A stretch of 64,000 nt of DNA, from positions 11,222,501-11,286,500 of the forward strand of contig NC_134035.1 of the NCBI RefSeq assembly GCF_964204645.1, in the 5' to 3' direction. This DNA comes from Tubulanus polymorphus. Its lineage: Eukaryota > Nemertea > Palaeonemertea > Tubulaniformes > Tubulanidae. Position numbers and translations under genes: made by a program. Shown here piece after piece: positions 5,548 through 64,000 of this stretch. The notes beneath the pieces were generated by a model that saw only the letters and a list, made by a program, of their open reading frames with translations, had not been told where the DNA came from and did no database searches. Each line of letters begins with the position of its first letter. The stretch's first letter is position 1.

Positions 5548-8500
5548 TCAACTAACATCGCTTTCTTTCTTAGCGCCGTCCGCCGTCTCGTTCGTCGATG
5601 CCGCCGTCGCTGGCGATCTGCCAGCAGCGGTCTGCTGTTGTTGTTGAGGTTGTTGAAGCGACATCTGTTGCTGTTGCCTGGCAGCGGCTGCCTGGCGATT
5701 CTCCTCTTCTTGTAGCTGAACGGCTAACTCGTGACTGAAAAACCAAACCAATGACATGATTATTGACAAAATGTACAAAATAATTTAACACGAGAATCCT
5801 ATTCAATACAGTTAGAATGCACTCATTCTTGTTGGTATTAGAACCCCCAGCCTATAAGGCTAAAAAGAATTGATACCTCATTTCTCATTTCGGTTGCGCT
5901 TAAAAATTGCCCCAGCCAGCCACCTAAATTTAAGGAGTTTTAAAGGAGTTTCAGGCATTTCGCTCAAATCAAAGGAGTTTCAAGCACGAGCTGTACGAGC
6001 TAATCAGCTATTCATTTAGAATTGCTGAAGTAATTTAGAAGAGAGGATGTTGTCACTAGTTATTACTCCTTTTGGCGAATTTGAACCCAGCCTCAATTTT
6101 CAACATATCAATTCTGAAATACAAATATTACATAGAATGACCTGATTAAGTATATGCTATTCAGTATACTCTGTGTACTTACTCGGATAAAGTATTTGGC
6201 AATTGCTGAATTCCGCCAGCACCACTACCACCACTACCACCACTACTAGCACTACTAGCACTACCACCAGTGGCTGCGGTAGCCTGGTATCTGTTAGCTT
6301 CATCTTGTAACGACAAAGCCACCAAATAACTACAATACAATATCGATAGGAACTTAAAAATGATCAATATAATTTTAGAAAATAATACGCTTTATCCCGA
6401 CGATGAGGCGGCCAATAGCTTCATGTACGCCTACGCTGAGTCATCCAATCGCACTCATGCAAGTATTAATCAGCAGCATGAAACCACCCTTTCACACATT
6501 CACCATTGTCTTGACAATCACTTAGAAACGACTACGGTAATGTCTGGCATTTGTAGTAATATTAGTTTGTTCATTTTCAATACGAGGAAATAAGCCTATT
6601 GAATTCACGCCAGTCTACAGATTTCGAAAAATATTCCTCTTTAAAAGCACATTTCTCATACATTTTTCATCGTATTCATAGATAGGATATTAATACCGTG
6701 GCATACCGGTACTTCTGACTGTTAGGCCAAAAAAATATATATATTCTGTTTCTGGTCAGGCCCTTCTGTACAAAACGATGCGGTGATGCGTTTTTCTTTT
6801 TTTTATGTTCCGACATTTGACTATCGAGTGTGATGGATTAGTCGACAGGAACAAGTCCGAACGGATGTATAGTAGCCAGCCCTTTCAAAATGGACATCGA
6901 TATCAACATGCTTTTGGTTTTCATTCACAATCAGACAAACAGCGATGAATAGATGGACTAAACTTCTGTTTGACAACATCGGCGACTAGTCGTGCTAGCG
7001 CGCGGTGCGCGAATTTCAGAGCCGATTTTTGTTTCGGTAAAAAAAATTTTGACGCGAGGGTTCTAGATCGACGCGCGCGCTGACCAGAAACAGAATACAT
7101 TTTTTGTTTGGCCTTAGTAAGAGGGTCAGGTGTATCCGACCAACAGTGAGATTTAAGTGATAGTTAGATGTTGTAGAATTGATGTACGTACTCTTGGTCG
7201 ATCTGTTGTTGAGGTGATACCAAACTGTCCATAGGAATGACTGGAATATTACTAGATTCGGGTTTTTGATAAGTACGGAATTCCGAATTGACAAAAAGAC
7301 CGTCGCCTTCGACGTTCGACAACGTTTCCCACACGACTTCGCTTTCGTTTAGAAATCCTTGGTCGGTGACCAGCGTAAATAATTCATTCTGAAACGGATA
7401 AAATCAGCATTCAAACTAAAATAAGATAATCAAGATTCAGCTCCACATCGACACATGATGCCTAGTCCGAAGGTTGATCCAGAGGCCAATTTTGAAGAAC
7501 TTTTCACATACTTAAAGGACACTTTAATGGTCGAAAAGGCAATATCAGGTGTACTCCTGCACTGAGATGTACCAATTATCTTTGTCGACAAACCCAGACC
7601 CACCAATTATAGAAATGAAGTGATTAGAAATTTCATTGCAGTTCATAAAATGACCCGGCCGATTAGGAGAAAGGAGGTATCAGTTTTTTTGAAAGCCTAA
7701 CTGTAAACTTACTTTATGTTTGTACAACGTGCTGAAGTGATTATTCCTGAACAGCACACACATTTCTCCTTCCTTCACCGTTATCACCAGTTCAGCCAGG
7801 CCGTGATACGTAAGTTGAGACGCGGTGCGCTCTAAGTAATTTTCCGCTATCAATGCTGCAAAAACAACAGACAAGAATTTAAAAGTCGCACCCTCCTAGA
7901 TATCCAGCAACCTCTGAGGAAGGTAGAGGGTGCATAGACACTAAATCCAACAGGGCAGCCCGGGGCAACTTAAACTTCAGAGCTTGCTCGTAGATGACTC
8001 GATCTAATTGCGAAAGAATAATCGCCGAATTACCTTCAGAGACTAAATCTTCATCGTCCGAGGTTTTTTGGTTGATTATTTTCTCTACTAGTTGATTGTA
8101 GCTACAGTTTCCGACCGCGCAGACGACCTCCGGCGATTGAGGGTCGACGAGCCAGCCGTGATACATCGGTATCGACAGCAGATCGAAGATAATGTGTTCA
8201 GACGTGTACTCAAAACTACTGATCCTACGGTAATTAAGAAAGAGAGCAAAATCATAATGGGGTCGGTTGATAAACAGTAGACTCCGCTCGAGTCGCATCC
8301 AATCAACTGAAACATTTCAAATTGAAATATTTTTTGTGAAACTATTGAAGAAATAAATAATATCGAAAATGTATTTTTTTGATAATATCGAACTCGGATA
8401 TCGCGCAAGTCAGACATATTTTACGGTCACAAAAGTCTGACTTTAGCGGAGTCTACTGGATCATGTATGTATGATTTGATTTTGAATTAATTTTTCATAG

Positions 8501-26713: not shown

Positions 26714-27457
26714 TCATTTTTTCGGCGTAAGCTCCGTATTTTCTTTCGCCGGCAGCGGCAAAAACCATTTATCGATCGTCGTGAATTGTTGCGTAACGTT
26801 TGCAACGTTCGTCGTCGGTTTCGCGACGGCCGTAGACGTCGACGTCGAGCAGATCAAGTCCCAGCCGCTTTTCTTCAACGCGATCGCCCACTCGAGTCGC
26901 GTTTTCGAGCCCTTCTCCATGAACACCTCCTCGACGTTACCCTCGCGCCACGTGCGATAGAAACGCAACTTCGGCAACTCCTCGACGAACGGCGGCAGAT
27001 CCATCAACATGAACAACGGACCCGTTAGACTAGTATTTATATGCCATCCCTTGTAGCATTCGATGTGATCTTTAACCTCGATGAATACGCCCGCCGTCTT
27101 ATCGCGGCGTCGAACTTTCTTCGCGCGGTCCAAAACTTCGACGGCGTCGATCAACGGCGGTATCTGATAGAAATCGGCCTCGTCGAGCAGCTGATCGAGT
27201 TCGCCGAAATCGTCCGGCACGTTCAGTTTGAACGTTCGCAGGTAGTTTAACACGTAACGGAACAGTCGACCGTCGCGATCGATGAAATAGTTGCCGCGCG
27301 CGTCCAGCGTAGTCGGTATGTCGCCTTTGAACATGGCGCCGAGCATCGAATCGGGAAACGCGGTAAGCGTCGATATCGTCGTCGTGTAGATCGTACCGCC
27401 GACGTTCAGATTGACGATTCCCCCGACACCAACTTCTTTCAGCGACGAATCGCCCAT
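26714..27457 (-). CDS. KCTD-family BTB/POZ domain protein
   Basis: A 247-residue protein with an uninterrupted coding region. Residues about 14-105 form a T1-type BTB domain: IVNLNVGGTIYTTTISTL, FPDSMLGAMFKGD, GNYFIDRDGRLFRYVLNYLR and EADFYQIPPLI. These are hallmark KCTD segments, closest in wording to KCTD6/KCTD21. The C-terminal half (GWHINTSLTGPLF, KLRFYRTWREG, RLEWAIALKKSGWDLICSTS) is less conserved and I cannot assign a subfamily from it. KCTD proteins are usually oligomeric, and many act as Cullin-3 adaptors or channel or GPCR auxiliary subunits. The ATG at 27457 is preceded 12 bp upstream by an acceptor (tttaagcag), so a 5'UTR intron is likely. The coding stretch is richer in GC than its surroundings. 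Confidence 0.92.
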   Translation of the reverse strand: MGDSSLKEVGVGGIVNLNVGGTIYTTTISTLTAFPDSMLGAMFKGDIPTTLDARGNYFIDRDGRLFRYVLNYLRTFKLNVPDDFGELDQLLDEADFYQIPPLIDAVEVLDRAKKVRRRDKTAGVFIEVKDHIECYKGWHINTSLTGPLFMLMDLPPFVEELPKLRFYRTWREGNVEEVFMEKGSKTRLEWAIALKKSGWDLICSTSTSTAVAKPTTNVANVTQQFTTIDKWFLPLPAKENTELTPKK

Positions 27458-28199
27458 CGTGTGTGAACCTGCTTAAATAACGTATCATATCATATCAGTT
27501 TTCTTTCATACACCTAATTAATAAATGATAGATAAGTTATATAATAAATCATATTACCAAGGATACTGGGGTCGAAAACTTTTTGTGTCAGGCCCCTGTG
27601 GTGTGGGCCCTTGTGGATCGTGTACAATACTATAATACAAGGTCGGGCAAAGTTCGGGGTAAGTTCGGGGTGGCCTTTTTTATGAAGAAGATAGAGTAGC
27701 CTATTTTTTAGTTCAAAACAAATGATTAGTAGAGAATACTGACACTGTCACCGACCGATCTAGCGCTAGGAGGAGGAGGCTATCTCCCTTCCTTTTCTAG
27801 TTGCTGTCATTCCTTATCATTTTATCGAGAAGCCCTTGAGACGAGTTGGCATATGTCAATATTCGAAACGCGCTGCGACCTAGAGAACTAGAACTAACTT
27901 CAACTTACCGTCCCGGCCAGATCCTGGCCGTCATGTGCTGCCCCTATCGTTGTGATAAGCGGTGAATTTTCGAACTAACTGAACTGGGCAATATTCCTAC
28001 TGTGGCATGCGTGTAATGACTTAGTTCGCACATTCACCGTGAACGATATGCATAGAGGCAGCACTTTATGGTTAATTTACAAATTACAACTGTTCCGTGC
28101 AGTAGTTAGTCGGACTGCCACACGTCAACTTCCGCATCGCGATCTAAAAATTTTTCCGGCATTTTTCCAGCTTCAAATTACATATTCTCAAGTAAAATA
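27458..28199. promoter_or_regulatory. Divergent intergenic region between KCTD and ARL1
   Basis: 742 bp separate two start codons that point away from each other. The region should contain 5'UTR and promoter sequence for both genes, including a KCTD 5'UTR intron. No specific motif is claimed. Confidence 0.5.
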
Positions 28200-35966: not shown

Positions 35967-36917
35967 TTATTTCATTGAATTCCTACAACGGATTTTCATA
36001 CAGAAATATTCACGAATTTCTCGTCCCAACAAAAGATATATGTAAAAATTTATGACATAGTTAAGCATTTGAAACTGAATGAAAATATCATATATAAAAC
36101 TTCTCAGCTCCAATGATATTGGCAAATATGTAGTAATAGTGGTTGGAAGTGCAAATATTGCAAATGCGAGTTAAACTGTTACTAGCATTATTGTTGTACG
36201 TTTTGATTTTGTAGTTTTCTGATCGGACGAAACCATTTTTGAACCTCTGAATAACTGAAATATTATTACAGCATTTGATGTAATGATCAATGTTAACGGT
36301 AGAATGACATCATAGATGAGAGTTATGGTGAAAAGTCTTATTTGGTCAAATAATTTATAGTAACATCCGAAAAACTTGTTGGAAAAATATATCGACAAAA
36401 CAGGTGTGATTAATATAACCAGTAGATTCATCGCAGTGATTATCAGTATAACAAATCTAGCGAATCTCGGTGTACATATCAAACGAGATGTGAACGGGAA
36501 GAGCACAACTGCCGTACGTTCTAGAGATATTGCTACTATTAACCACGAACTTGTGCCGACAGCAATCCCCATTACACATTCATATATTTGACAACTGATC
36601 ACTGAATTCATCAAGAATATAGGACCACCTTTAACGCGCAAGAGAACAAACTGTAAAACAGGCATCAGTGTAAAATTGAAACAGAACGTGAAATCACTGA
36701 CTGACAAAATGATAAGATAGTTAGCGTAAGATAAACTGCGGAATCTGCGACTTATCATTATCAGGAAAGTAGCTGAATTTCCAAACCCTCCAAACACGAA
36801 GAAGAAAGGCAGCATGACCAGTGACACAGTACGGTAGATTCCAGACCTGTTAGCGACAGACATAAGAACAATATAACTGCTATAAGTTCGACCGATTTGC
36901 ATTCGAGTAGAATTCAT
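35967..36917 (-). pseudogene. Rhodopsin-class GPCR interrupted by one in-frame stop in TM6
   Basis: From ATG 36917 the frame runs 248 codons to TAA at 36171-36173. It then continues in the same frame for 67 codons to a natural stop at 35967-35969, 316 sense positions in all. Features: TM1 GFGNSATFLIM, TM2 LSVSDF, TM3 Cys (ISCQIYECV) with SLERTAVVLFP in place of DRY, and TM5 ending IIFQLFRG. TM6 is split as RTTIMLVTV / stop / LAFAIFALPTTITTYLP. TM7 is NYVINFYIYLLLGREIREYF, a variant of NPxxY seen in invertebrate peptide-receptor-like GPCRs. There is no other lesion, so the stop is recent, polymorphic, an assembly error, or read through. The coding region is intronless. Ligand unknown. Confidence 0.85.
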
Positions 36918-37499
36918 GATTCATCAGCATTAATTGAGAGTGTACCAACTGTCGTGAATGTCAGATAGTACTGGACTGACTGACAGTGAGATTGTACTCA
37001 TCCACTGATCGAGAGTGCACTACTGGCTGTTTGAGAATGTACTGGAACTGACCATGACATCTTTTGTATTAGAAAAATCGAACTAACTTTAATATAAACA
37101 TAAAAAAATCATTAAAGACCTTATTACAGCTACAATTCATTTGTGATATCTATTGTTAAAAGTGAATAGAAAATCAATGCTCAGATATCAAACACAATTT
37201 ACTCAGATTTTGCGAATTTTTCATTGTGTAATAAATCTAACTAAATTGAATATCAATATTCGTTACCTACAAGAATTCGTTGTAAATGGTGAAGTTATAG
37301 TAAAACGGGTTGGAAAATATCTACGGTATCAGTTCTATACAGGAAAACGCATGGTAGAAGGAGAGTAGTAAATCAGTGCATGACCTTGAACCTTGAAAAT
37401 CTAAGTGCCCAGTGAGTTCGCCTCACGTAAAACATATTTTGATATTTTGGGCAAAGATACACATTTAATTTTCTTCCTCAAATTTTTAGGGACACCAAC
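36918..37499. other. Noncoding stretch upstream of the GPCR
   Basis: AT-rich. Several 'gagagtgtac ... actgactgac' repeats lie just 5' of the receptor at about 36930-37050. No coding sequence is recognised. Confidence 0.4.
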
Positions 37500-39640: not shown

Positions 39641-39746
39641 CAAGTTCCACAGTTGTGAGTTAGAGTTAACTCTTTTGAGTTGAAGTTAGTTCATTTTCAA
39701 TGAGTTAACTCAGAGTTAAATCTTAACTCGGAACTGTGGAACTGGA
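39641..39746. mobile_element. Short inverted-repeat element, TIR CAAGTTCCACAGTT
   Basis: Left end caagttccacagttgtgag, right end ggaactgtggaactgg. The interior is made of gagttaac motifs. Same family as 23900-23999. Confidence 0.65.
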
Positions 39747-39776
39747 CCATGGTGCATAATCTATAAATCCGATAGA

Positions 39777-40254
39777 AGCGGTTGGATGACTGGGCAACTG
39801 GATGACTGGGCGACTGCATGACTGGGTGACTGGGCGACTGGGCGACTGGATGACTGTATGACTGGACCACTGGGTGACTGGGCCACTGGGTGACTGGGTG
39901 ACTGGATGACTGGGTGACTGGGCCACTGGATGCCTGGGCGACTAGATGACTGGATGACTGGGTGACTGGGCCACTGGATGCCTGGACGACTAGATGACTG
40001 GATGACTGGGTGACTGGGCCACTGGATGCCTGGGCGACTAGATGACTGGATGACTGGGTGACTGGGCCACTGGATGCCTGGACGACTAGATGACTGGATG
40101 ACTAGATGACTGGGCCACTGGATGCCTGGACGACTAGATGACTGGATGACTGGGTGACTGGGCCACTGGATGCCTGGGCGACTAGATGACTGGGCCACTG
40201 GATGCCTGGGCGACTAGATGACTGGGCCACTGGATGCCTGGACGACTAGATGAT
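39777..40254 (+). repeat. Hierarchical minisatellite, 8-bp unit in 48-bp higher-order repeat
   Basis: The base unit is gactggat / gactgggt / gactagat / gccactgg variants of 8 bp. In the central part six of these form a 48-bp unit (gactagatgactggatgact, then gggtgactgggccactggat, then gcctggac) repeated several times, with shorter versions at the right end. Long Pro-Ser-Gln-rich open frames across it are a by-product of the period. Confidence 0.95.
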
Positions 40255-41100: not shown

Positions 41101-41611
41101 TGTATTTGAAGATTTGAGCACCCCTAAATTATGGAAGACCTCAGACGACATACGTATGAGATATAAGATATACAACATACAACTGCCTCTAAATCTATCT
41201 TTTCTATCTGAAAAAGATCGATTTACATTATAGTCTTTATCGCCTGCTGGCACATACTCAAAACTTGGAATTATCATTTTTTTACATATTATCATTTATA
41301 TTGCAAGGTTTAAATCCGTCACTAATAACCGACCATATGTTGCTTTAAAAATAATCGGCGAGCTCTGCGAAACTGCATTCTCGTGTAGCATCGCAGATAC
41401 GTAGGTAGGTTTCGACTGGTCAATAACGACCGATTCGGGAATTCTCATCTGCTGCTTTATCTCTTCACCTGATAAAGAAGCGGCCGGTAGATAGTTTGTA
41501 ATCCGTAATTGCTATTACTAAACGGGAATAGATCAAATGAAAACCTGTCTCAGATCGCGCACGTTAATATCTAACTATTTCCTTTTAGCAGACGATACTT
41601 GAAGCTCGAAG

Positions 41612-42508
41612 ATGGACGAATCAAAATACAGCGACAGTTTCCGAACATTTCGTCTAAATCACAGCGAAGAAAATAATTTCGGACCGAAGAGATTAGGTGA
41701 AGCAGTTCGTGCTGTCCGTCAGGCTGTTAGCGGCAAACTGACGACACCGGACGGCAGGCGTAGAGGTTTGAGATTGTTAGTAGTCGGTCCGGCTCACGGA
41801 TATTTGTTAGAAGACACGTTGTCTGAAGTCGGTAATGAAGTGAGTTTCGAACGCATGGACTGCGTTGAGCCAAACGAAGTTTTGGCGCGGGAGCTGGAAA
41901 CTCGAATGAATACACTCGCCAGTAAGTACGGCTTCGAGTCCAATGTGCACACACGTAAATTCACTTACGAGGAGGCGCCTACTTTCTTACCAAACGACTT
42001 CTACGATTTGATCATTTTTTCGCACGTGCTCTATTTCTTGGACGATCCAGCAGAATGTTTGGAAGTGTCGCTCTGTAAGTTAGCGAATGAGTGTGGACGA
42101 GTGTTCCTGAGTTCAACGAAGAATGAACAGTGTTTCAAGATGTGTCAAGAAATTCAAGCTCTCGCTGGTTTTTCATCCACTCCCTACGTCCATATTGACA
42201 TAGATGAAATCCTTCGCGCGAGAGCGGCTAAGATAACTTTGGTTTCGCGCTCCACCGATGAAGCCGCAATTCTGATGCACCTAGCCCTGAAACCGGCCCG
42301 ATTGTGTATCAACGAACAGGACGCGGCGATTCGTAAAATGAGCGACGAAGTACCGACGTTTATAGCGGGTCGAGATTTAGATACTTTACTGGAAACATCG
42401 CGCGCACAAGTTCAGGATATCATCCGTAAATATGTCGTCTACAGTTACGGGTTTCCGATGTTGCCTATGACACTGGAAAAGTTCATACTGGCCAGAAACG
42501 TCAGATGA
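41612..42508 (+). CDS. Histamine N-methyltransferase-like SAM methyltransferase
   Basis: A 298-residue protein in one coding exon. An acceptor (ccttttag) at 41589 just before the ATG suggests a 5'UTR exon upstream. The N-terminus KYSDSFRTFRLNHSEENNF matches the HNMT start (KYxESFxxFLNHSTEH). A class I methyltransferase core follows: LRLLVVGPAHGYLLEDTL (motif I position), then DCVEPNEVLARELE (acidic end of strand 2). Next come DFYDLIIFSHVLYFLDDPAE (motif IV region, like HMIQMLYYVKD) and GRVFLSST. In vertebrates HNMT inactivates histamine in the cytosol using SAM. The motif I loop here reads G-P-A-H-G-Y and lacks the usual G-x-G-x-G, so SAM binding may differ. HNMT-like genes are often multiplied in invertebrates with unknown substrates, so histamine should not be assumed. 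Confidence 0.82.
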   Translation: MDESKYSDSFRTFRLNHSEENNFGPKRLGEAVRAVRQAVSGKLTTPDGRRRGLRLLVVGPAHGYLLEDTLSEVGNEVSFERMDCVEPNEVLARELETRMNTLASKYGFESNVHTRKFTYEEAPTFLPNDFYDLIIFSHVLYFLDDPAECLEVSLCKLANECGRVFLSSTKNEQCFKMCQEIQALAGFSSTPYVHIDIDEILRARAAKITLVSRSTDEAAILMHLALKPARLCINEQDAAIRKMSDEVPTFIAGRDLDTLLETSRAQVQDIIRKYVVYSYGFPMLPMTLEKFILARNVR

Positions 42509-48613: not shown

Positions 48614-51600
48614 CTATCTGTTTGTCACCAGATGGCGTTGAATTATCATTTGCGTCGTCGTTATTAAAGTCACCGACGCGCAAATTACAGTCGTTACGAT
48701 CGAAGACGAAATCGTCGCCGCTCCCTGCGACACGCGTTTCGCGTCGCTCGGATTGTTCGTTAAAACCTCGTTCGTATTTTTGTCTTTTATTATGTCTGAA
48801 AATAGAAAATAAAAAATGCGCGATGTATTAAAATCAGGTCGGAAGAACTTGATTATAAAGGGGCCTAAACCCTTTCAGTGTGGTATATAAATCGGTGAAG
48901 GACTTCGCTTATACACCGCACCACATTGTATCGATTTGATTATCAATTAGTTTTAATTTCTATTGAAAGATGGCAGCACCCATCAAACATTGTGAAATAT
49001 TGGTTTACAAAATGCACTGGGGCGGATTCCCAAAATTTTCAAATTATCCCCAGCATTTTAAGGTACGTAAGAAGACACTTGGGGGCACTGAAATAGCTAA
49101 CATGGTATGCATTTTGTACCAATTGACCTCCTAATCTACATGCCCTAATGGCACCTTCAGCGAACAATAGAAAAGCAAATTTCATCCATGGCAAAAAATT
49201 AGCATTCAAAACACGTAACTAAGTATCGTTTTCACAAGTAAGGCTTATAGAAGTTTGCTATTCAATTAGTTTCAAGGTGAACCTCCTTCAAATATATCCT
49301 AACATTGCACCTGGTTCACAAAACAAATGCAATGTTAGTTTTCATGATATATTCGACGTCCTTTCATTTTCTCAGTGACTATGATGTGAATATACGGACA
49401 GCCAGCATTCTTACCTTTTTCCTTCGTTTTAGGAGGTATATACTTTTTGGTTGTTATTTGCTGCCTACGTGTAGTAGTGGTGGTTGATTGCGTAGAAGTC
49501 GATGACACCGGACGCGGTCGAGTGACCGGCTTCACTTGACCTCCGCCGTCATATCCTCCTTCTAGAAAATCATAAATGAATCCGAATTTCAGAATTAGGC
49601 GCCTGGAAGTTTCGTTCACAGATAACTGGCATCGGTCCCCCAGAAATAAATCCGAGCGATCTGAATAAATTTTCTAGTTTTTACCAAGTCCGCACAAGAC
49701 ACCTTCTTGTACAGGGCCCAGAGTATTCTATTGTTGTATCTATATCTATTATTATTATTATCATGATTATCATTAGTTTATTTCTTTACTAAGAAGTACA
49801 ATACAAATATTGAGTCATCACTAACTATGCAGTACTCCCAAAACTATGAAGACTAACGCGCAAAAAATATATCAGACCAACTGAATTAACGACAGTAGCG
49901 AAAATGACCTGACCGAAGTCTCTGTACTTATTCTTATCATTTTCCAATTCTATCCTATATGACGACGACGGCAGACATCGCTAATTGGCCGGGGAGAGTT
50001 ATTTTTCAGTTGCGTCGTAATATTATTGATCGATACTGTCTGTTGCTATGTCGCTGATTTGACAGATGATATTCAGTCTGTTGTGCGAACGCTCTCACAA
50101 TCTATGACAACGCCGCTGAACAAATGCGTAAGAACTATTAAAAGACGTGACGTTCGAGTCTCGCGGAACGAGACCGATTACTGATCTAACTTTCTCGATG
50201 AAATTTCCCAAACTTTTTCAGTGAATCTTTTCTTTTTTCATGTTTGTTACCCGTGGCATCTGGGAATATTGTCAAATGAAAACTTAAATGAAAAATCCCT
50301 TTTTAATGAGACGTTGCACAAAATTGACTTAAATGGACAATAAAACTTTATAATATCCAAAGGCCTTTATGTTAGGTGTTCACGTTTACAAGGGGCTTTT
50401 ATGTATTGATATGAAGTAAAGACCCAGAAATGTCTCCAAATACCAACTTATAGATTATTATCTAAAATATGAATATTTTGTCCGATGAGGGGTCCTAGAA
50501 CCCGTCCAATCATTAGCCCAGTTATTGAGTAATCAGTTGTTGGTCATTAATGAATATTATTCGCATTTTCATGTTAAAGTTTTATTTTGGTACCTATAAA
50601 ACTGTTCTCATCTCAGGCTTAGGTCAGGACCGAGTAATTTAGATCCGAGTTAAGCTTGACTCAAGAGGTAAAGATTTCCAAACATTGAAACCTGTCAAAT
50701 CTTAACCATGTGTGACTGGAGCAAGTTTGATGAAAATTCTAAGCTTAAAGTGACCCAAATTGTTGCACTTAAGAACGAGTATATCAAAAATCTGAATTTA
50801 AACTTATGCCTGAAAACTGGATAAAGCGCACCATCATGAAGTAAAATGAACCAGCCAATGATATCGGGTTTGTTTTCCAAGTACTTACGTGAATTCTCAT
50901 CGCAGCACACTTTGAATATCATTTTCATGTTTAAATACTTGCACGCGCCATGGTAAGTATTTTCGAGACCATCAAGATCACCTCTCGATGTAGCTACAAG
51001 CAAAACGTTCGAAAAAACCATAAATAATGTTAGATTTGCGACAAGACTGAGATAAAAGCTTTCACTGATTTCATTATTAATGATAGATATTGATAATTAT
51101 TGTTTAAGACAAATTCTGATATTTTTTCTTCAAATCAATTTTGAATTTCAGTATTTAGAGTTTTAAACGACGTAATTTCTGTTCATCCATATAAATAGAG
51201 CGAATAGATAGATTTGAGAAAGATGACAGAAAAAGTAGATAGATATGTAATTTAGATGTCTGGCAGATCCAGTTTACAATTAGTTTACATTGACAAACTT
51301 CTCATTTTCAACGACTTCTACACAGTTAGATTTCACAAAACAACCTCCACATCTTCAATTTGAATTAGACTCGATAAGCTTCGTGAAAACTGGACTGAGA
51401 AAGTTTCAATTGTTGTTTTCTCAATTTGATCGAGAAGTTTGTCGTATTTCGAGCGAACTGGATTCACCTTATACAGTTTCAGTACAATCGGAATCATTTA
51501 AAAACATGCGATTTTTAAAATTAACATTTTCATAATGTAGACAAACTGCTTAATCCAGAACACGCATTCTATCCAATCGTGTTTAGATATTCTAATTTGA

Positions 51601-54600
51601 ATAATGCTTGAACAAATATGCCAAACAAAAACGATGGGTAATGTTTTGTTTCAATCAGTATCTCTTCAATGAGAGAAGAGAATTTGTGCATGAATTCATG
51701 CATCAAAAATCTGTCAAAATGTCTTATTTCAATTTGGATCAGTTTATTTGAAATACGTCGATCTGGATTTCACAGTGACACTGTATCGACGATCGCTGAA
51801 ATTAAATTATGTCATCATAAAACGATTAGATGAAAATGAAAAAATTAAGACATTTCTGCCATTTTGCCCGTAAGCTGATATGTACGCTGGATTTTTAGCA
51901 AACATATTTCAAGCTGGATTGATAGGAAATTAAACCCAGCTACAGTCTATTTCTCGTAAAGCATCTGCAACCCAGAACTATTATGTGACATTGTAGAAAA
52001 GCTGAATAAACATTTGGGTTCTTACACGCGTGCATATGAGTTGAGCCTATCCTTCAGGAATGCTTACAACCATCAACTATAAAGCTTTATACAAATCCCT
52101 ACACATCACTTCACGGGCAAAATGTTGAAATTCATTCATTCATTCATTTATTAGAGGGTTGTGTATAAAATCACACATTTTTTTCTCATTTTTGGAGGTC
52201 AGAAATATCAAATATTCAAACAGCAATTCGTCCTAGGTGCTTATTATTGAAATTCGACCAGAAAATGGACTGGACCACTAGTGTATATCAGAAGGGAAAT
52301 CCATCAGTTCTTGTTTGTGAATTCTTTTCAATTGTTAGATTTAGAATTAGTTCGTTTCCAATCACAGTCAAAAATGAACTTGGAATTGAGGAGAAACTTT
52401 GCAGGGTATTTATATCACTATCTAAGTTTGATAGGGCTTATAGACATAGTTGGGCATAACGCTGGTTTCAACATTGATATTTCAATCTGAATCTAATAAG
52501 AACTGAAAACGTTCGGAATTGAAGAGTTAAAGGTGGACATGTCTCGTCTAATACTGGCCATGAAAGAAAACAAAATGATAGAGTTTTCAGTTATGTTGAT
52601 CAAACCATTTTGATTTTAACCATCCAAATTTTCAAAGTTTGCAAAACACGTCAAATCCGGTTGTGGCTTATATTTGACCAGATCCGAACCAACTTCATTT
52701 AGACCAGTATACTGTCCTGTTCACCTTTCACTCTTCACGAAGCTTTATGAATATTTCGTAGGAAAAATACCGCATAAAGCTGTATTAAAAAACACTATTG
52801 TCCGGATATAAAACGAATTTATATTCAAGCAAAAACTCGCAATGTTAGAAAAATGGCATGCGATTGAATAAATGATGTTACATGTAAAACACGTATACAT
52901 ATTGTGTTTTATATTTTCACTGTAGCAATGCAGTAGGTATTAACAGCAAGGCAATTAATGAATGGAGGGAGACCATGAGGTATGTACTGAATTTCGTTCG
53001 GTAAATATTGGTACATCAAACACTGAACATATTCGCTATTAAGTGTCTCATGTGGAAAAATGCTGTGCACTTTTTTTCTGTGGAGTGAAATTAATCAAGA
53101 AAGATATACGTTTTTGTCAACTAAATCGTTTTTTGGTAAACTTTTGAAGGTGGGAAGATCGACGCATATCAATTGTCATTCAGATCGAACTTCAATTTTT
53201 ATAGTTTGTCGACTATTAGCGAAATGTCAGTCTGAACCACAGTCCAAAAATAACCAACCAAGATTGAGCATGGTTGCCGAGTTGAGAAAATGGCACGTTA
53301 AGTGGAACTACAACTGTCAAAAATGTTTGGTATATTTTCCAAGATACCAGTCCAAACAAGTAATAGAATGAAAACCTAGTCCGTACCAGTTTTCTAATAT
53401 TTTCATTTTTAATCATTAGTTGACAAAATTGAAACCTTTTTTTCATTGATTATTTCATTGAACTGGGGGTGAATCAATATGATGTTACAGTACATTTGAA
53501 ATTTAATAACACGCGGCCAGCGTTTTTCAATGCGTTATTTGTCTATTCCCGTATATTCAAATACCAGTATACATAACAGTGCTATACTTTTGAATTTTTT
53601 TGTGTTCTGAATAACAAAATTATTGTCATTAACCAATATGAATACGATTATCGCTGACTATTATTTTTGGGGAATACTCAGGTATTACAGCGGCGCAGAT
53701 CCAGGGGCCTTTTTGATGGCATTGCAGCAAATTTAGGGCAAGGAAAGGAATTTTCAAGTGACCCAGGATTAGGAAGTACAGAGCTCGGGGACACTCAGAA
53801 CTAAAACATGCCCAGAATTGTTTAACCATTATCAGAATTTGTTTCGATATTCCGTGATAAACTCAGGAGTAGCTCTAAAAATGGAATATTGCCATCTGGA
53901 ACGCTCGGTACCCTGGATCCACTGGTGTATTCACACTGATGAACACCGCTTTGAAAAACGCTGTTGTGGTTCTTGATCGTGAAGTATATGTATATAGTAA
54001 AGCCCAACGCAGAAAACATAGGGAAACAAGGAAACACAGAAATAAACATGTCTGATATTGGAAACATCGTTTCCCGAACCATGTTTATTGTTTCGGGGTC
54101 ATTCATTTATTACGTACGCATCAAGGGAGGGGGGAGGAGTCAATGCAATTGCGTACTGTAATGCTTAATGTATATGAAAAAATGGCCGATTTTGCGTACA
54201 GAGGGGGAGGGGGGATGAAAATTTCAAATTTTATGCGTACGTAATAAATGAATGATCCCTTCTCGTAAATGCAAACAGGGAATTGGTCAGAAACATATTT
54301 CTGTCTCCTTTTCTCCGGTTTCCCAATGTCGTGTGCGTTGGGCTTTCACGTACAAAGGGCTCAAGGGGCATGCACATAGCACATTCCTCAGGAATTCGTG
54401 AATATATTTTCACGGTGGTGAGGGGTACGAGTGTCAGTGATGTTACTATACGAAGCGCCGAAATGATGAATCGATCTTCGCGTTTATTTTTCCAAATGAT
54501 TTTCGATGGTTTTTGTTTTAGTTCATGATCACGCGTACAGATGGCGCAAAAACAGCGAATATTAAAACGTAACAAGATGCATAATGTGGACGAAAATGAT

Positions 54601-57600
54601 AAACTATGAAAAAAGAACACCGTACCATCGTCGTCGCACTGTTCTGGGGGCTTCGGGCGTAAATTACCGCAAATGCATTTTCATTTCATTCTATAGCATA
54701 TACTAAACATAGTATTGTTTAGTTTTTACACTCGAGGCATCGTAAAAACGTTTTCAGAATTGCCTGTGACTGTCGAACAGCAGTATTTTACATATCGATA
54801 TTGCCTTTTAAGATGAGATTTTTCGAGGCATTGTTTAACGTAGCTGATGGGTTTCTGTACCGAAATAGCTGTTCTCCACATTCGTCAGACAATCATCTGT
54901 TTCGAATTTCTTCGTGGTGAAATAGATTTTCCGTTTGAGATATCAACTCGCGGCTTTTTGAAACGTAATTCCGTTCGCGAACGCACTGCGAGGCAAATAA
55001 TTTTGTGACGAGGAGGAGTGGGAAAATTTGTCAACCCCCGCTAACCCCCTAAAGAGGTGTTATAGCGGAATTCAAGGTCGTGCAGAGAGAAGGGATGAAT
55101 TTTGATCTTAAACAAATTGGTGAACGATTTTTTCTCTCCATTTACCAGAAAATGCATAAAATTTGAACGATTTGAAGATTTTTCGATGGAAGAAAATTTG
55201 TCGGACATGTTTACTGCTGATGAAAAAGGATAAACTCAGCCCAATACACTCTGTTCACCAACAACATTAGTGATTGATATTACCACTGGTTGATACTAGG
55301 ATTGGAAACAACCACTTCCAGGACTGAGTGACCATCACTGATGCTACAATTGAAGTTTTCATCTTCATCAAGATGAGTCAATTACTTCAAAAATTTTCTA
55401 TATTAGGGTTTGGATAGAGGTTAAATCAATGCCCAGGACCCAGTTTCACAGGTATTGAACACATTGGTGAAGATGAAACATTTATCTTTCAAATGAGTTA
55501 TTGTTTGTAGGATTCTCTGCATGGATAGTTGAGTGTCATGGCCGTTAAGAAAATCAACTGATTTCCACTTGCCACACATTTCAATTCAGCCATTCATACC
55601 CATTGGAGGTCAACAAGGCATGAAAGACTGGTCACAGCTGCTTGATTTCGTATTGGGAATACTAAACCAGACTGTTAGCTGAATTTAAGCCGCTATTCGT
55701 GACTTGTTGGCTTCCAATAGGTTGGAATGGCAAAATTGAAAAGTGAGACGAGTGGAAATCAGAGGCCTTACTTTAGAAGCCATGATATTCAGCAATCCAC
55801 GAGGGAAATCTAACAAACAATAGCTCATTCCCAAGATAAAGGTCTTACCTTCAATCCGGAATGAATTAGTCTAATAAGAGATAATCATTCATGAAAACAA
55901 GTTCAGTATACTTAATGTGGGACAGGCTGTACATAATGATCCAAACATTCACTGATTGCAGATACAAGGCAATTTTTGTCATTGTGTTTTAAGTCACGAT
56001 CCGGTTCGTTCCTGGTCCAGGCCCGATTAACCCTGGCCAAATTGTCTCCCAGTGATCTGGGCTTAAGTCACAACTGCGACCTGGGCTCTTCCTTCTTTAT
56101 CATCATCAGTAAACATGTCTTAACAAAGCAGATAAAATCTCGACCGCACGGCGTCGCACGGCCCCCAGAACAGTATCTCCTTCAACCAATATACAGGCAG
56201 GAACTTACTGATATAATAATACGATTGTCCAGGCCTGAACTCGGGCGTATTTGGAATAGCGGTATACCGACTGAAGATTATCGTATACCGTCGTCTGAAC
56301 TGTGGACGACTGCAGTTGATTATGCGCATCATTTTGATCGGAGTAAAAATATTACAATCGTCGTAATTTTGTTTTGGCACCTGAAATCGCATGGAAAAAC
56401 GGAAAAATATGGATGAAGCAGAAATAAAGATATTACACGTTCGTAGAGGAAAATTTAAAAAAAAAAAAAAAGAAAAAAAAAAAAAAAGTTGTGAGACGCC
56501 GATGAGGAGGGTACGTGAGGCGAGTCCGTCTGCTACTGACGGTTGGAGCATCGGACGCGCCTCACGGTTGAGGAGCGCGCGTAGTTATGAGACCGATAGA
56601 TCTAACGGTTTCACGACGACGCGCGCTCCCAGGGGGCGCCAACTTCGGATTCGCGCTTTCATTCGTTTCGGCGAAAACTCGATCCGAATTCTCTCCTCGC
56701 GGCTACGCGCGACAGTATACATACGTGTTCGTGCGCGAGGCCATGCCGAATTCAGAAATAGAAAACTCCGCGTCGTGCGGTATTCATAAAAAGCAGAACG
56801 GTGTTTGATATATTATTACTACATAGTAATAGTGCTGCGATAATGATTTCAAAGCGAATAGAGAAGAAAATGATTTAACCCTTTCAGTGCTGACTACTCA
56901 ATACTCGAAAGTGCCGGAGATAATTTGAAAAGTTCACCCCAGTGAGTTGAATAACGAGCATACTGCTCTGATGTGCCTACACTGTGGTGCGGTGTATTGT
57001 TGTTAGTAATACGGCACTATGTTTGACAGGTGCTGCCATCTCTCCAAAGAGAAAAAACTAATTCATAACTAATTACATCAATACACCGCGGTGCGATGTA
57101 CAAGCACTATAGTTTATACACCGCACTGCCATGTAGACGAACTGAAAGGGTTAGAATTTCAAACGTTCGCACCAAAGAGTTTTTTCTATATTCTTCACCG
57201 GACCGGACCATGCACGTAAACTAATGCAGATTGTCACGCGCCTCACACACTACCCATTCAATGCATCAGCAACAGGAGCTAGGAACAGGAGGAAGCAGCA
57301 GCAGCGTCAGGATTGAGGCTCCTAAACGCGCGCGCGTACACAACTTACTTATGTAGTAATAGGCCTGGCCGGCCTTAAATTCGGCGGTGTTAGGGATCGA
57401 TGCGAAAGGGGTAACGAGCATCGTGATTCGGCGTTGGCGTTTTTTGTTATCGCACGTGAGAACGCGATTGACCCGGTTGGAAAATACGTTACAATCGTCG
57501 TAGCCTTGTTTCGTCACCTAGAGACACGTGTATCAGACAGAGCAAAAACATATCAAACAAACATGCACGCACGAAATTTTTCGAGGAAAAAGAAAAAAGA

Positions 57601-60600
57601 TTTTACGACGGACTCCGCGTCTAACTCGAATGACAATCGGGGCCGGTGATTTCCGGTTGTGACTCGGAATAGAAATTCATCTTCGTCAAAATGTTACATA
57701 ATTGTATCTGATACGGTAGAATCTATTCAATTCGGTCCAGATTTTAATCTAAACCTGATATCATTTAAGATCCATCTGTGCATAATTTATGAATTTCAAA
57801 TACGATTTTTGATCTGGATTTTTCATAAACTTCTTTGTTTCCAAATGATCCGCATTAAGCGGGTTCTACTTGTAATTAGAGTCGGACCATGGAATTTACG
57901 CGATATTCTATTGCAATATTTCTTTAAGATTTGTGTGCGAATTAAAATGCTTATTCGGCTTGAAAGTATTCGAGTTAGGAGGGGTCTGTACGGATTTTTT
58001 CCAATGAATATCTGTTGTATAGATGGCGCTATAAGCCTGCCGCTACGTTAACAATCCACCAGATGCCGTCACTTACATCGGGTTTCATTCAGTCGAAATT
58101 GATTCATTCTAAATAGACTTCAGACTTCAAATCTCCCGAATACAAACCACTAAATTAACGAACAATTTATTTTTCTACTCGTCATTGTTTGGTATAGTTT
58201 TCATGAAGGAAAGTTGGTTTTGATTTCAACGTAGAAAAAATTGAAGCGCACAAGACTGAATAACTGACAGTGATAATTGCGGACCCTCACTTGCCAGAAA
58301 TAATCTGCAGTCAAATGTTATATTATGTTAGACATAAGGATTCAGAAAATCAAACCATTTTTTTAGTGAATGTAAATACATATCGGATTCCCAGCTCCAC
58401 AAATCTCCCTACTGAAAATTTTATCAAATCATAGTTTCGTAGCGACAGGCTTCGTATAGCAAAACACAGATAATCTAGATCTAGACAGATATTTAAAAGT
58501 AGGCCGACAAAAAACCATCCATACATTATTTCCAAGTCGTTTTTTTTTACTAGTAGTCAATAAGTATCGAAACAAAAACGATATCGAATAACTTTACATG
58601 AGAATCAAGTGCTTTATGGAAACTGAATAAGCAATGATAAGACTTTAAGGAAATGCAGGGATAGTTCAAGTTTGCATGAAGTGTTTACGCTGGCTGGCTG
58701 GCGATATATACATATACAACAAGGACGGGTTTCGTGGCCCGTAATAATATAAGTGTCACTTTTAAACGGGACAAAACTTACATAAGATCTGAAGAGGAGC
58801 TAATCCCTATAAGCATATCGGGGTCATAAAAACCACAGCGGACACGCCCGGGACAATCCCAGTTCATGATATAGGGCATGAAATCTACCACAATCATATT
58901 TCAATGAATGAAATGATTATTCACTATCTTAAGGATAGGCATATGTTTTCATAGTCATGTTTATGGCGTATGTTTGCCAGATATTTCTGTATCAATCTAT
59001 GACTTTGACAGTTTAGTATCTTAACGACGCTAACATTGATATACATTTGTGCTACATTTGAAAATGCTATCTTGATCTCAGAGATTTTTCGAATTTTGCC
59101 AACATCCTTAAAATTGCAATATGATATTCTGAATTTGGCCGCTGACTTAAGTCATTTGTTCGCGAGGTTTAGAAAAAGATTTTTCAGCGGTTGGTGCACG
59201 AAACTAAAACTGTATTCAGTTTTGACGCCTACTTGATGGAGCGCAATCAATCAATTATAGGCATTTCTAATAGTAGGTTTATAGTTTCGTTAGCAGAGGG
59301 AATGGAATTGATCAGAATTTGCCTCCTGGTACAAAAAGGAAGTAGAATTGATTCTGGCAGAACGTGATGGGTGTGTCATACATTGATAATGACCGGTTAT
59401 GCGGTTGTCCTCTTAGCAAACGATACGTTTTATTCTATATCCGAGATCTTGTTCGGGAATTTTTAAAATTGTGGGGAAAAACACGCCCGATAATAAGTAG
59501 CCAGATATAATTGAGGAAAAAGACAATATATTACATTGTAATCAGTATCGAGTGAGGTTCGATTAAGTTGGAACCACTTGACATTTGACAAATAAACTTC
59601 GAGAAGAATCTGCCCCACTCTTCTCTATATAACTGTTTAAGATATGTTTAGGTCGGCCTACGTGCCATGAAAGACTCAATGAATGGTAAAGCAATCAATA
59701 TCAGCTCCTTGGATTTCGATGCGTTTCGCCAGCGAAGGATAACTGTATCTTAGATCAGTCATTAGCATCCCATGAAATAGTGTTGATGACATATACACCT
59801 AAGCCGCGATCACATGAGCATTTTTGGCCCGGGCCAAATTTGGCCCAATTTTAGCACCAGGCAAATGATTACGTTTGAATTGCAACTGGCATCGGAAATG
59901 ATACACCTCGCTTTGTTTGAGCATTGTTGAGTATCGAGTGAATGGTTTGCGTGTGAACTCTTCTCAGACACGGGCCAAATTTGGCCAGAGTCTGATCGGT
60001 GCCAATTTGGTCCAGGCCAAATCTTCTCCGTGTGATCGCGGCTATAGTCTCCAAATGACTGGATAGTGGCAGCATTTGTGTGAAAAACCAGGGGAACATT
60101 CATAAGGATCTTATCTGAGCAGCTAATACTGGGTGGCTACTTTCCGCCAGTTTAGAAATGCCCCTTGAGTTTTCCCAAAGTTGAATCCAGAAATACTGAA
60201 CCTCAGATGGGACAAAGAGACTGAAATGTAATGCTGCACATGAGAAACCGATGAACAACTGAGTAATTTGGAGTATCCTGACAAGGCCAACCCAATCATA
60301 CCTATAATCTGGGTTTACACATTCGATTTTCAGAATTAAAATATCGCTCCCGTTATCACAGGTAATAACTTTTCATGAAATGGTTTCAGATATGGACGTA
60401 GCGAAAAGATGATTAGTTTAAAACCCACTATATACAAAATTTCAAAAGATTAGAATGACGATGGTCCTTAAAGAAGGTCCGAAATATCATATCTTCTTTT
60501 TTATTTTATTTTTGAGGAATGAATTTTGCTTTGAATCTTTGTTATTGTTAACAGTAGATTTTAAAGTTTATGTGGACCGTCTTTCCCTGTTTGAATAAAG

Positions 60601-61164
60601 AATGATACTTAAAATCACAGTTTGCACTAGTATAATTTCACTGAATTAAACTTTCACTTATTTTACTTTCGAAAATCGACAGCGCAAACCCAACAAAAAA
60701 CCCAGGGGCCGGTTCCATAGTTATCGCTTAGACTATAGACAAGTCTAAGACCAATTTCTGGCATGGCATAGACTGAAGACCAGTTTTAGAGCATCTTGTC
60801 ATGGCTTAGAATTAAGACCAGTCTAACACCATCTTGTCATGGCTTATACTTATGACCATTTTAAGACCGCCTTGGTTCTATAACCAATCTAGAAATTAAT
60901 GACAAGCCTTTAGATTTAAGATCACTTTTGGACTCAAGTCTCGACTATGGGACCAGCCCCAGCATAGCATACATTATATACCGGTAATATGGATTTGAAT
61001 AGAGTTTAGATTTTATTTCATACAGGATTCTCATATATACCTGGTATATCACATAGTATTCCATGTTATTGGCGTTGTAGCCCGGATAATAAGAAGGACA
61101 GATTAGATCTATTTTATCCCCCATATTCACATGTATCACATGATCGGTGTTGTTGGACTCGAAC
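48614..61164 (-). CDS. Ephrin (Eph receptor ligand) with duplicated alternative exon; first exon outside window
   Basis: Exons on the minus strand: 61041-61164, then either 57349-57517 (A) or 56209-56380 (B), then 50889-50993, 49415-49561, 48614-48795 (TAG). With A this gives 241 residues after the missing signal-peptide exon. Ephrin-domain landmarks: [30 protein letters not shown] or [15 protein letters not shown] or [22 protein letters not shown] and [14 protein letters not shown], including the four conserved cysteines. After the domain there is a Thr/Ser/Pro/Lys-rich stalk (about 50 residues), then a hydrophobic stretch ([20 protein letters not shown]) and only about 14 residues to the stop. 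That fits a GPI-anchor signal, or a membrane segment with almost no cytoplasmic tail. The ephrin-B tyrosine and PDZ tail is absent. Ephrins are cell-surface guidance and boundary ligands. The upstream exon was sought in 61165-64000 and not found. Confidence 0.9.
48870..49096. mobile_element. piggyBac-like MITE, eroded copy in ephrin intron
   Basis: Left end CCCTTTCAGTGTGG preceded by TAAA; right end GGCACTGAAATAG followed by CTAA. Both the target sites and the TIR have decayed. The interior block tattgaaagatggcagcacc is shared with the copy at 63597. 227 bp. Confidence 0.7.
54095..54259 (+). mobile_element. 165-bp MITE, copy 3, TSD TTC
   Basis: TTC|GGGGTCATTCATTTATTACG on the left and AATAAATGAATGATCCC|TTC on the right. 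Nearly identical to the copy at 33283-33447 along its whole length, so both moved recently. It lies in the ephrin intron between exon 2B and exon 3. Confidence 0.9.
56209..56380 (-). CDS. Ephrin alternative exon 2B
   Basis: 172 nt, acceptor gatttcag, donor gtaagt. Encodes [34 protein letters not shown] and [21 protein letters not shown]. It is homologous to exon 2A over its full length, with both structural cysteines kept. It starts at phase 0 and ends after one base of a codon, exactly as 2A does. No stop or frameshift. Confidence 0.88.
56457..56487 (+). repeat. A-rich run
   Basis: About 31 bp of almost pure A interrupted by single G bases, about 75 bp upstream of the exon 2B acceptor in gene direction. 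Read on the minus strand this is a long T-rich, polypyrimidine-like tract. Confidence 0.8.
56879..57150. mobile_element. piggyBac-like MITE between ephrin exons 2A and 2B
   Basis: TTAA|CCCTTTCAGTGCTGACT on the left and GAACTGAAAGGG|TTAG on the right. 272 bp. Its whole length aligns with the copy at 29079. It sits in the 968-bp intron that separates the two alternative exons. Confidence 0.85.
57349..57517 (-). CDS. Ephrin alternative exon 2A
   Basis: 169 nt, acceptor gtgtctctag, donor gtaagt. Encodes [33 protein letters not shown] and [22 protein letters not shown]. It joins exon 61041-61164 in phase ([14 protein letters not shown]) and exon 50889-50993 in phase (YYYI|TTSRGDL). Confidence 0.9.
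59802..60043. mobile_element. MITE with AGCCGCGATCACA terminal inverted repeats
   Basis: Left end taagccgcgatcacatgagc, right end ccgtgtgatcgcggctatag. The interior is built of ggcccgggccaaatttggcc-like palindromic blocks. Copies or fragments are at 22823 and about 19914. A TA target duplication is possible but not clean. Confidence 0.75.
60704..60960. mobile_element. Inverted-repeat element, ends GGGGCCGGTTCCATAGT
   Basis: Left end ggggccggttccatagtta, right end gactatgggaccagcccc. The interior holds repeated 'taagaccagttt' and 'catggctta' motifs, as in the copies at 46439 and 13108. It ends about 80 bp from the ephrin exon at 61041-61164. Confidence 0.7.
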
Positions 61165-64000
61165 CTGAAAAATACAAGCGACAAATTCGATAAGATAATA
61201 CGCAAGCAAAGAAACAAAGAAACTAGTCGTTTTCATCTTTTGGCAAATTTTAGGAGATTTGTTGTCTGTGCTTCAATTTCATGACAAAAAAATGAAATCA
61301 ATATCCTTGCATCGGTTGCTTAAAGTCTGTTCTGGGAAAATAGCAACTTCAGCGACTGAACATGATGAAGTCATTTGTTTTTGAATACTCTGTAATATCT
61401 GATCAAAATTTCAGTGAAATACTAGCCAACCACAGGGATATATATTAGCTTAGCATGTTACCAGTACATTCAGTCACTGCGCTATATCAAGTTTTTTTTG
61501 AAAAAGGCACAAACTTTCCATTCCTGATATTGCCTCATTCGATGAGCTTAAAATGCAATCCCCTGGCCCTGATCCGGTAAAGGTCAATGCATATTTTACA
61601 TTCTCAATCGATCGGGAAAAATGAGAATAAAACTGTCTGACAAGAATATCGTAGAATCAGTGAAGATAACATAGAAACAGAAGGTAATAAGGAAGCGTTA
61701 AACCTGCGTGTTTTGTAAACTGGAGAGGAAGGATTGCCCTAACTAACAGAGAATTGATGGGCACGCTGCCATTAACTCTGAGTGGCCTTTGCTACACTGA
61801 AATAGATTCCCACCGGGAGTATAAGACAAGCCATCGTAATTAGCAGACATGTAGAATTTGATATCATCACCTGCAGCAATTAATGCTTGAATTGAGCTGG
61901 TGCGGTGTGGCGGCCGAGTATTAGACAGATGCATCGGTTTGAGTTTAATCAAAATGAAGATAGTCAGAGATGAGTTTCCTCAGTGAATTGGTCTGTAGTT
62001 TATTGTGACCTATAATCATAGAGGCCCATGCTAAAATCTACCGACAACTAAGTCCCCACCTGGGGTTAATCCCATTTTAATCCCAATTTAGAGAGAAACC
62101 CAACTGACATCTTGTTGTAGATGAAAAAAAACTTGGAAACAATTTCTCTCAATTCTTTATCCAGAAATTCGCCAAGCCCTTCACTAAAACAACAATTTTC
62201 TAAGATTTAGACATCTGCAATATGCAACAACTGTACCAATTTATTAGGCATATAGATTTGCTAGACAAACTAGACAAAAATTGAATAATTGCTTATATCT
62301 CAAAATTGATGGAGTTTTAAAGGAGTTTCAGGCATTCTGCTCGGAATTAAAGGAGTTTCGAGCACCTTTAAAAACATTTTCCGTATAGACGGCGTTTTGA
62401 AAGAATAGGGAAGTTGTAAGGACCCCGTAAAAGTGCATAGCTAATGAGGCTGATAATACATGCGAAAGAGTTTTTACGGTCAGTGTCCATGTAAAGTTCA
62501 TACGTGCTTCCGACACATTTTCCCAACGACGATAAAAACATTCGGCCATAAAAGAACTAGTATTCATTTCGTATCGAATGAAACGCCGAGCGTGATTTTT
62601 GCGCGATTCGACCACCTGAAATGTGACGCTCCGCCGAGCCGTACTAATGAATACCGAACTGCGCGGAAAAACGCCACATTTTCGATCAATAAAACTCGAT
62701 TCCGAGCAAAAATAGGTGCGAAAATACAAAGCCCGCGCATCAAAGAAGACGCGATGCGAACAAAGATAACGAGATGTATTCGAGGAGTTGTTTTGTTCGA
62801 ATGTCTTATTACTTCATTGCTCGCGAAAGAAACTCTTGACTCATTTTGTCTCAGTCCGATACCCCCGGTTCATCGAAACGACGCGCCTAGAAATGGAGAC
62901 GTAATTAACTTTTTCGGCCGCGGGCGAATCGCTGGAATTCACCTCCGTATTCGCGATCGACGACGTGACCGTCCCTTAACCGCTTGAGATCGTAAACTAA
63001 GTACTATATAATCTATAGAAAGCTCGCGTCCAGTCGACTGACCGTTGAGAATGTCGTGAACACGGGTCAGTTGAAGTCACTGCTGAAAGCGTGCGATTTG
63101 TTTGTCACTGCAAACTTTGTTTTCTATACATTGCGAAGGTGTCAAACGAACGTGTCAACAGTACAATAGCAACTATAACAAACAGTTGGAGATTTCTGTA
63201 CGGTTTTTTCTAATACAATTAGACAGGAGAGTATTTCACACTGTCTGTCGCTTTATAAGAATATGTATATTTTGACGATTGGCGCTCGGGTCACGTTCTT
63301 TATTTAAACTTTATACATGAAGACATATATGAAGGCCGTATGAAGGCCTTTCACGAGCATAAAACAACCAGTAGGGAGCAACTTCAGACAGTATAACCAG
63401 TAATTTCTAAAATAAATCTCCTGCAGATTGTTGATTTGCTTAGGAATAATTTTGTCAAATTCTATCTATATATTTTAATTGGTTTTGTAATTAAAACATC
63501 CAAAAAATAATGATGACCATAGGGAACTGCTTTTTTCAGTCAGTCAGCCCACCAGATGGTGGTGTTGGTCAAGACTAGGAGTCTATTCCTTCTAAACCTT
63601 TTCAGCGCATCTACATCCCAGGGCGGTGTATCAATCAGTGATGGACTTTGCAAGTACACTGCATCTGGCGTATCGATGTTATAACTAATTAGTTTTTATC
63701 TCTATTGAAAGATGGCAGCACCTGTCAAACATAGTGAAATATCAGTAACTAACGATACACCCGCCGTGTAGACGCACTATAGTGGTATGCCCATTATTGG
63801 AGCTTTCAAAAATATTCAAATTTGAAAAATATTCAGCAATGAAGGGTTAATTAATACACTCCAACGCTGCTGCGTTGTCACCAAATCTCGAGTGCTTCAT
63901 AAACAGCATGCATGTTCGATAGAATTGACTGAGATGAACTACAAATTAATCGAAATATAGCGAAAGAACTTCGACGAACAACGACTCCTCGATCTAAAAC
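61165..64000. other. Ephrin first intron, noncoding as far as seen
   Basis: I searched the minus strand for an ephrin exon ending with the W-N-S-x-N-P segment and found none. The missing signal-peptide exon must therefore lie beyond 64000. A 175-codon open frame at 62460-62987 (+) has no recognisable domain. A piggyBac-like MITE is at 63597-63846. Confidence 0.5.
63597..63846. mobile_element. piggyBac-like MITE, fourth copy
   Basis: Left end CCTTTTCAGCGCATC preceded by TAAA; right end CAATGAAGGG|TTAA. 250 bp, inverted relative to the 29079 copy judging by the interior (gatggcagcacctgtcaaac). Moderately diverged. Confidence 0.75.

Follow-up and report, generated by a model that had tools for sequence, protein, structure and literature searches.

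The window, the whole 64,000-nucleotide stretch of DNA analyzed here (C11:11222501-11286500), holds a single-copy ephrin gene in which a tandem-duplicated exon is likely subject to either-or splicing, with binding of one Eph receptor predicted to differ between the two products. In the explanation we favor, the exon encoding the receptor-binding face would have been duplicated in tandem and later diverged, and splicing would place either copy, designated 2A and 2B, between exons 1 and 3 of the mature message. Transcripts carrying both copies or neither would lose the reading frame and presumably be removed by RNA decay, leaving single-choice messages as the only ones that yield ephrin. Judging from the profile scores, each choice should preserve the ephrin fold together with the tip of the G-H loop, and would swap the strands and loops around that tip plus the loop shoulders. 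The isoforms would probably bind the one detected Eph with different strength or geometry, conceivably in different cells or stages.

The minus-strand gene was extended to seven exons over a span of ~57.5 kb, the first of which lies outside the window, ~45 kb upstream of exon 1. The original prediction had described two intact, diverged exons in tandem with canonical splice sites, open frames, and matching phases, preceded by an exon 1 ending at 61041 in phase 0 and followed by an exon 3 starting at 50993, and all of these features were recovered on the minus strand. Exon 1 of the window (61041-61164, minus strand, 124 nt) is common to both isoforms, covers Pfam Ephrin positions 18-58, and is delimited by a TTTTTCAG/G acceptor and a CAG/GTATAT donor. 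It is followed by the alternative exons 2A (57349-57517, minus strand, 169 nt, CTAG acceptor) and 2B (56209-56380, minus strand, 172 nt, TCAG acceptor), both of which are open throughout and end at a GTAAGT donor; the intron between them (56381-57348, minus strand, 968 nt) holds a dispersed repeat. The common exon 3 (50889-50993, minus strand, 105 nt, GTAG acceptor, and GTAAGT donor) encodes the end of the receptor-binding domain and carries on the ephrin frame from 2A or 2B alike. The frame is kept through exon 4 (49415-49561, minus strand, 147 nt, CTAG acceptor, and GTAAGA donor), which encodes a Thr/Ser/Pro-rich stalk, and exon 5 (48614-48795, minus strand, TCAG acceptor, and 182 nt to the stop TAG) adds a hydrophobic C-terminal segment. 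In silico splicing gave proteins of 277 residues with 2A and 278 residues with 2B, both open to the natural stop.

Scanning 94 kb for a first exon had earlier turned up no convincing candidate. The sequence beyond the window was searched for W-N codon pairs with a phase-2 donor behind them, which returned 41 candidate rows; among these, the first exon was picked by eye for a YWNSTN motif. This candidate ends at extended coordinate 106050 with a GTAAGT donor and, from an ATG at 106156, encodes MDMLPWLFLSLLVGYIGEFVAGIELPPIYWNSTNKM, with exon 1 completing the last codon; other possible in-frame start ATGs were found at 106450 and 106150. The assignment as first exon we infer from motif, phase, and donor.

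Several other features were observed in the window. The minus strand included two pieces of a MINDY deubiquitinase gene (7879-8316 and 9777-10457), the second with a short in-frame repeat of the AMADDGSVA/AMAGGGSVA kind, and a 252-aa open frame (26714-27472) with a BTB/POZ domain (BTB_2, 80.7 bits) that we take to be KCTD-like. A piece of a Rhodopsin-family 7TM receptor was identified in a 249-aa open frame on the same strand (36171-36920; Pfam 7tm_1, 44.4 bits), as was a minisatellite-like segment (39697-40213) open in two frames, one of them repeating SSRPGIQWPSHPVIQ. A 301-aa open frame on the plus strand (41603-42508) gave weak methyltransferase matches, none above the Pfam cut-off, and presumably resembles histamine N-methyltransferase-like proteins.

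The predicted identity of the gene as an ephrin was supported by both isoforms, which exceeded the Pfam Ephrin (PF00812) cut-off of 25 with 114.5 bits for 2A and 114.4 bits for 2B, the matched part running in either case from residue 36 to the end of exon 3. Exon 2 alone matched Pfam Ephrin positions 57-111 with 40.3 bits for 2A and 40.2 bits for 2B. For each isoform, all of the distinct PDB sequences matched at E ≤ 0.01 (24 of 24) were named ephrins, with the B type first, and both cysteines, E-F, and YY were common to 2A, 2B, and ephrin-B1/B2. The gene resembles the ephrin family PF00812 in its B-like receptor-binding domain, hydrophobic N-terminus, stalk, and hydrophobic C-terminus, and differs from it in that the middle of the domain is here encoded by two alternative exons. 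As judged by hydropathy only, the N-terminus was hydrophobic and the C-terminal region reached a moderately hydrophobic 19-residue peak of 1.82 followed by a short tail, a segment that could be either a GPI signal or a membrane anchor. Excerpts of PMC2405795 describe a predicted GPI anchor on the B-like ephrins of certain invertebrates.

The frame arithmetic claimed for the two exons also held, since at 169 and 172 nt both are 1 modulo 3, such that inclusion of both or neither leads to a premature stop and either alone to a full-length product. In silico splicing with both exons included ended the frame at codon 143, 395 nt short of the last junction; with neither exon, it ended at codon 98, 189 nt short of that junction. 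As both combinations stop early, only a single choice would yield the protein, however the splicing itself is controlled, and on these grounds we infer that 2A and 2B are very probably mutually exclusive exons.

The choice between 2A and 2B would probably be made by splicing factors and not by steric limits, given the 968-nt middle intron, the GT-AG type of every site, and the UGCAUG motifs on either side of 2A, the last point being suggestive only; with this intron length and GT-AG at the window-exon boundaries, neither steric nor U2/U12 exclusion is indicated. The motifs, which we take to be Rbfox-type sites, lie on the minus strand ~45 nt upstream (57562-57567) and ~135 nt downstream (57209-57214) of 2A. 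UGCAUG on both sides of 2A within 300 nt was reproduced in 11 of 2000 shuffles, a frequency that refers to a motif chosen after reading the introns; no UGCAUG was found within 300 nt of 2B, and the whole gene span contained 17. A 58-nt near-palindrome predicted to form a strong RNA hairpin was identified on the minus strand (56572-56629), ~190 nt upstream of the 2B acceptor, with a folding energy of -35.9 kcal/mol for a 72-nt fragment (z -6.6 vs. 200 shuffles). Among the assembly candidates scored (40 of 2404), only its own inverse was recovered, and further copies may exist. The hairpin is a candidate regulatory structure and, together with the UGCAUG sites, could regulate exon choice, these elements being suggestive leads and not evidence of mechanism.

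Competing RNA pairing between a docking site and selectors, as in Dscam, could also set the exclusion and would be compatible with either-or use of 2A and 2B, and the strong hairpin in the 2A-2B intron is in keeping with such a mechanism. Pairing calculated with the nearest 1200 nt of each outer intron gave -44.7 kcal/mol for the middle with the following intron (best of 6 shuffles -42.4 kcal/mol) and -39.3 kcal/mol for the preceding with the middle intron (best of 6 shuffles -38.5 kcal/mol). However, these margins are small (2.3 and 0.8 kcal/mol, from only 6 shuffles a pair) and the third intron pair falls inside its shuffles, and we consider RNA pairing an unlikely basis for the exclusion.

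Repeated sequences were observed in the introns on both sides of 2B. The dispersed repeat in the 2A-2B intron (57153-56875, ~280 bp) had at least 42 matches at E ≤ 0.001 including itself, and the copies elsewhere that were scored (40 of 2404 candidates scored) were 77-81% identical. The intron just after 2B contained nested inverted repeats (55204-56119), including 25-nt arms 866 nt apart; their inner part matches elsewhere in the assembly, and they therefore perhaps represent a fold-back mobile element.

Comparison of 2A with 2B gave an alignment score of 151, far outside the distribution of 2000 shuffles (mean -24, sd 10, and maximum 14). The encoded proteins were identical at 26 of 56 positions and different at 30, with one one-codon gap, and the DNA differed at 74 of 168 aligned bases. 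Differences affected 23, 15, and 36 of the 56 first, second, and third codon positions, respectively (second vs. third position, Fisher p 1.3e-4), and 14 of the 26 identical residues were encoded by different codons. Over the exon-2 segment, human ephrin-B1 and -B2 were identical at 29 of 55 positions, and the 2A and 2B isoforms were identical to human ephrin-B1, -B2, and -A5 at 13 to 17 of 55. As the isoforms are mutually closer than to the human ephrins, the duplication seems to postdate the separation from the vertebrate lineage, but it is clearly old.

These patterns bear on the reading that one copy is a relic, with only one exon normally spliced and the other a decaying or rarely used duplicate. 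The 2A isoform did score below the 2B isoform against ephrin-B2 (chain 6p7y_B; 62.4 vs. 72.5 bits), and by eye the pyrimidine tract of the 2A acceptor is less uniform, yet neither copy has lost its open frame, its GTAAGT donor, or its correct phases, and their Pfam scores are nearly equal. A long-neutral copy would moreover be expected to carry stops and to have changed similarly at second positions, in contrast to the 15 of 56 second and 36 of 56 third positions recorded, and a relic is very unlikely.

The position of the duplicated exon within the domain is central to the case for altered binding. Contacts of ephrin-A5 with EphA3 number 22 in the table and 21 in the text of PMC4439037, and 18 of the 22 aligned within exon 2, so that the exon encodes most of the Eph-binding face. 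Of the contacts that lie below the pocket, the same paper assigns most to the ephrin F-G loop (PMC4439037). For vertebrates, there is an argument that small changes here can have consequences: in excerpts of PMC2832735, two ephrin positions in this segment are offered as the reason why EphA4 binds ephrin-B2 and not ephrin-B1.

The original prediction had the exon encoding the G-H loop and the copies differing most there and in the stretch before it. The exon does encode the loop, and the least similar ten-residue windows of 2A and 2B lie just before it, the alignment of that stretch varying with gap placement; the loop itself, however, is not where the copies differ most, as 5 of 9 loop contacts are identical. 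The loop tip IPNT and E-F are kept in both copies, and the shoulders vary (F/Y, A/T, S/A, and A/P). Contact positions with residues in both isoforms were identical at 7 of 16 (5 of 9 in the G-H loop and 2 of 7 outside it) compared with 19 of 40 positions elsewhere in the exon, giving hypergeometric p values for contact divergence of 0.52 for all contacts, 0.83 for the loop, and 0.28 outside the loop. Divergence at contacts thus does not significantly exceed that elsewhere in the exon, and the sequence shows no trace of selection for new binding; what speaks for altered binding is where the exon lies and how much it has changed, not selection at contacts.

Searches of the assembly (267.8 Mb in 77 contigs) were consistent with a single ligand and a single receptor. 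The ephrin family gave three matches, all of them exons of this gene, and no second ephrin locus appeared at a threshold as loose as E ≤ 10. For the Eph ligand-binding domain, a single match exceeded the cut-off (164.8 bits; C7:5655539, minus strand), and five further matches of 16.2 bits or less fell below it. The Eph transmembrane-region family likewise gave one match above its cut-off (C7:5629439, minus strand), which lies 26 kb downstream on the same strand and therefore plausibly belongs to the same Eph gene. One group with only a single Eph receptor is mentioned in excerpts of PMC2405795.

The gene had been proposed to make two ligands with different Eph specificity; two ligand forms are still predicted, but the assembly yielded just a single Eph gene for them to bind. 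With one Eph gene detected, the isoforms would modulate how a single receptor is bound and not choose between Ephs, which would amount to two ligand forms for one Eph, barring an Eph gene missing from the assembly or from the exon-by-exon search. A difference in affinity, kinetics, clustering, or cis/trans behavior at one receptor, or binding to a non-Eph partner, is more likely than different Eph specificity.

The finding of only one Eph in the assembly, the identical G-H loop tip, and the stops that follow double inclusion or skipping (395 and 189 nt ahead of the final junction) would all suit a dose switch, in which truncated or decayed messages lower the amount of ephrin and the two proteins are equivalent. 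Dose alone, however, gives no reason for a second, diverged copy, and 30 of 56 residues differ between two intact coding exons, which makes equivalence of the proteins highly doubtful. Tandem duplication followed by either-or splicing and altered binding of the one Eph remains the preferred reading.

Homeodomain loci were also recorded in the assembly. Ten Hox-type homeodomain matches were located in C6:5318231-5634756 (~317 kb), all on the plus strand. Probing with a Lox5-like homeodomain yielded 39 matches at E ≤ 0.001, and the top nine lay on the plus strand of C6 within ~290 kb. In one of the six translated C6 loci the homeodomain is followed by KLNGP, which we take to be close to the Lox5 signature KLTGP, and two other C6 homeodomains are presumably Lox2/Lox4-like. 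These homeodomains point to a probable spiralian (lophotrochozoan) source, perhaps a mollusc or annelid; a COX1 search of the assembly returned nothing.

The duplication was confined to exon 2 and to two copies. Open AG...GTRAG stretches of 140-200 nt and a length of 1 modulo 3 numbered two in the 57.5-kb gene span, namely exons 2A and 2B, and no third exon-2 copy was found, the next best match having an E value of 0.09. A pair of overlapping ephrin genes, or a second set of exons, was rejected, as a 174-kb scan showed exons 1, 3, and 4 once each (exon 5 lies outside that scan) and the assembly held no further ephrin-domain match up to E 10. No processed retrocopy revealing the splicing was detected in the assembly, where the 8 matches comprised the gene's own exons, with 2B read into its flanks, and a match on C3 to the stalk only (E 5.95). 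The search for relatives in viral contigs gave 21 pattern matches, of which 0 were confirmed. An assembly artefact from a collapsed or repeated haplotype is practically untenable and was rejected, because 2A and 2B (26 of 56 residues identical and 74 of 168 bases different) are about as unlike as human ephrin-B1 and -B2 over the segment, and a repeat search of 50900-61200 linked the exon regions only by one 38-nt, 79% match at the exon start.

Gene number is the usual explanation of ephrin diversity. We regard it as an even call whether, with one ephrin and one Eph, splicing gives two receptor-binding faces and hence two contact signals, as gene duplication does in vertebrates. If it does, the two faces would be approximately as different as those of human ephrin-B1 and -B2 and would be chosen by the splicing state of the cell. 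Ligand diversity would then be separated from gene duplication in a one-ephrin, one-Eph animal, offering a simple system for asking how changes around a fixed G-H tip alter Eph signaling.

An ephrin with alternative receptor-binding exons was not seen in the open-access literature, supplements aside, and annotations or subscription papers may hold such isoforms. The ephrin-A5S splice form lacks exon 4, i.e., another exon is affected (excerpts of PMC3408466), and the splicing mentioned in excerpts of PMC6993872 concerns Ephs or splice variants generally; PMC2970541 deals with an Eph receptor. The main text of PMC5740500 has no occurrence of ephrin, EFNA, or EFNB.

Compared with the tandem mutually exclusive exons of the human and Drosophila catalogues and of Dscam, 2A and 2B are alike in being similar tandem neighbors with equal phases and lengths not divisible by 3, which makes joint use shift the frame. 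They differ from the catalogued exons in that exclusion is here predicted from sequence and the intron pairings give no clear signal of a competing RNA structure. Excerpts from this field indicate that exon-joining reads were accepted only where they cause a frame shift (PMC5740500) and that decay of doubly spliced transcripts is among the possible exclusion mechanisms (PMC6071210). In FGFR2 (IIIb/IIIc) and Caenorhabditis elegans egl-15 (5A/5B), the choice between mutually exclusive exons changes a portion of the extracellular surface that takes part in binding. The ephrin exons resemble both in swapping the binding surface within a signaling pair and differ in the partner that varies, which is the receptor in FGFR2 and egl-15 and the membrane-bound ligand here.
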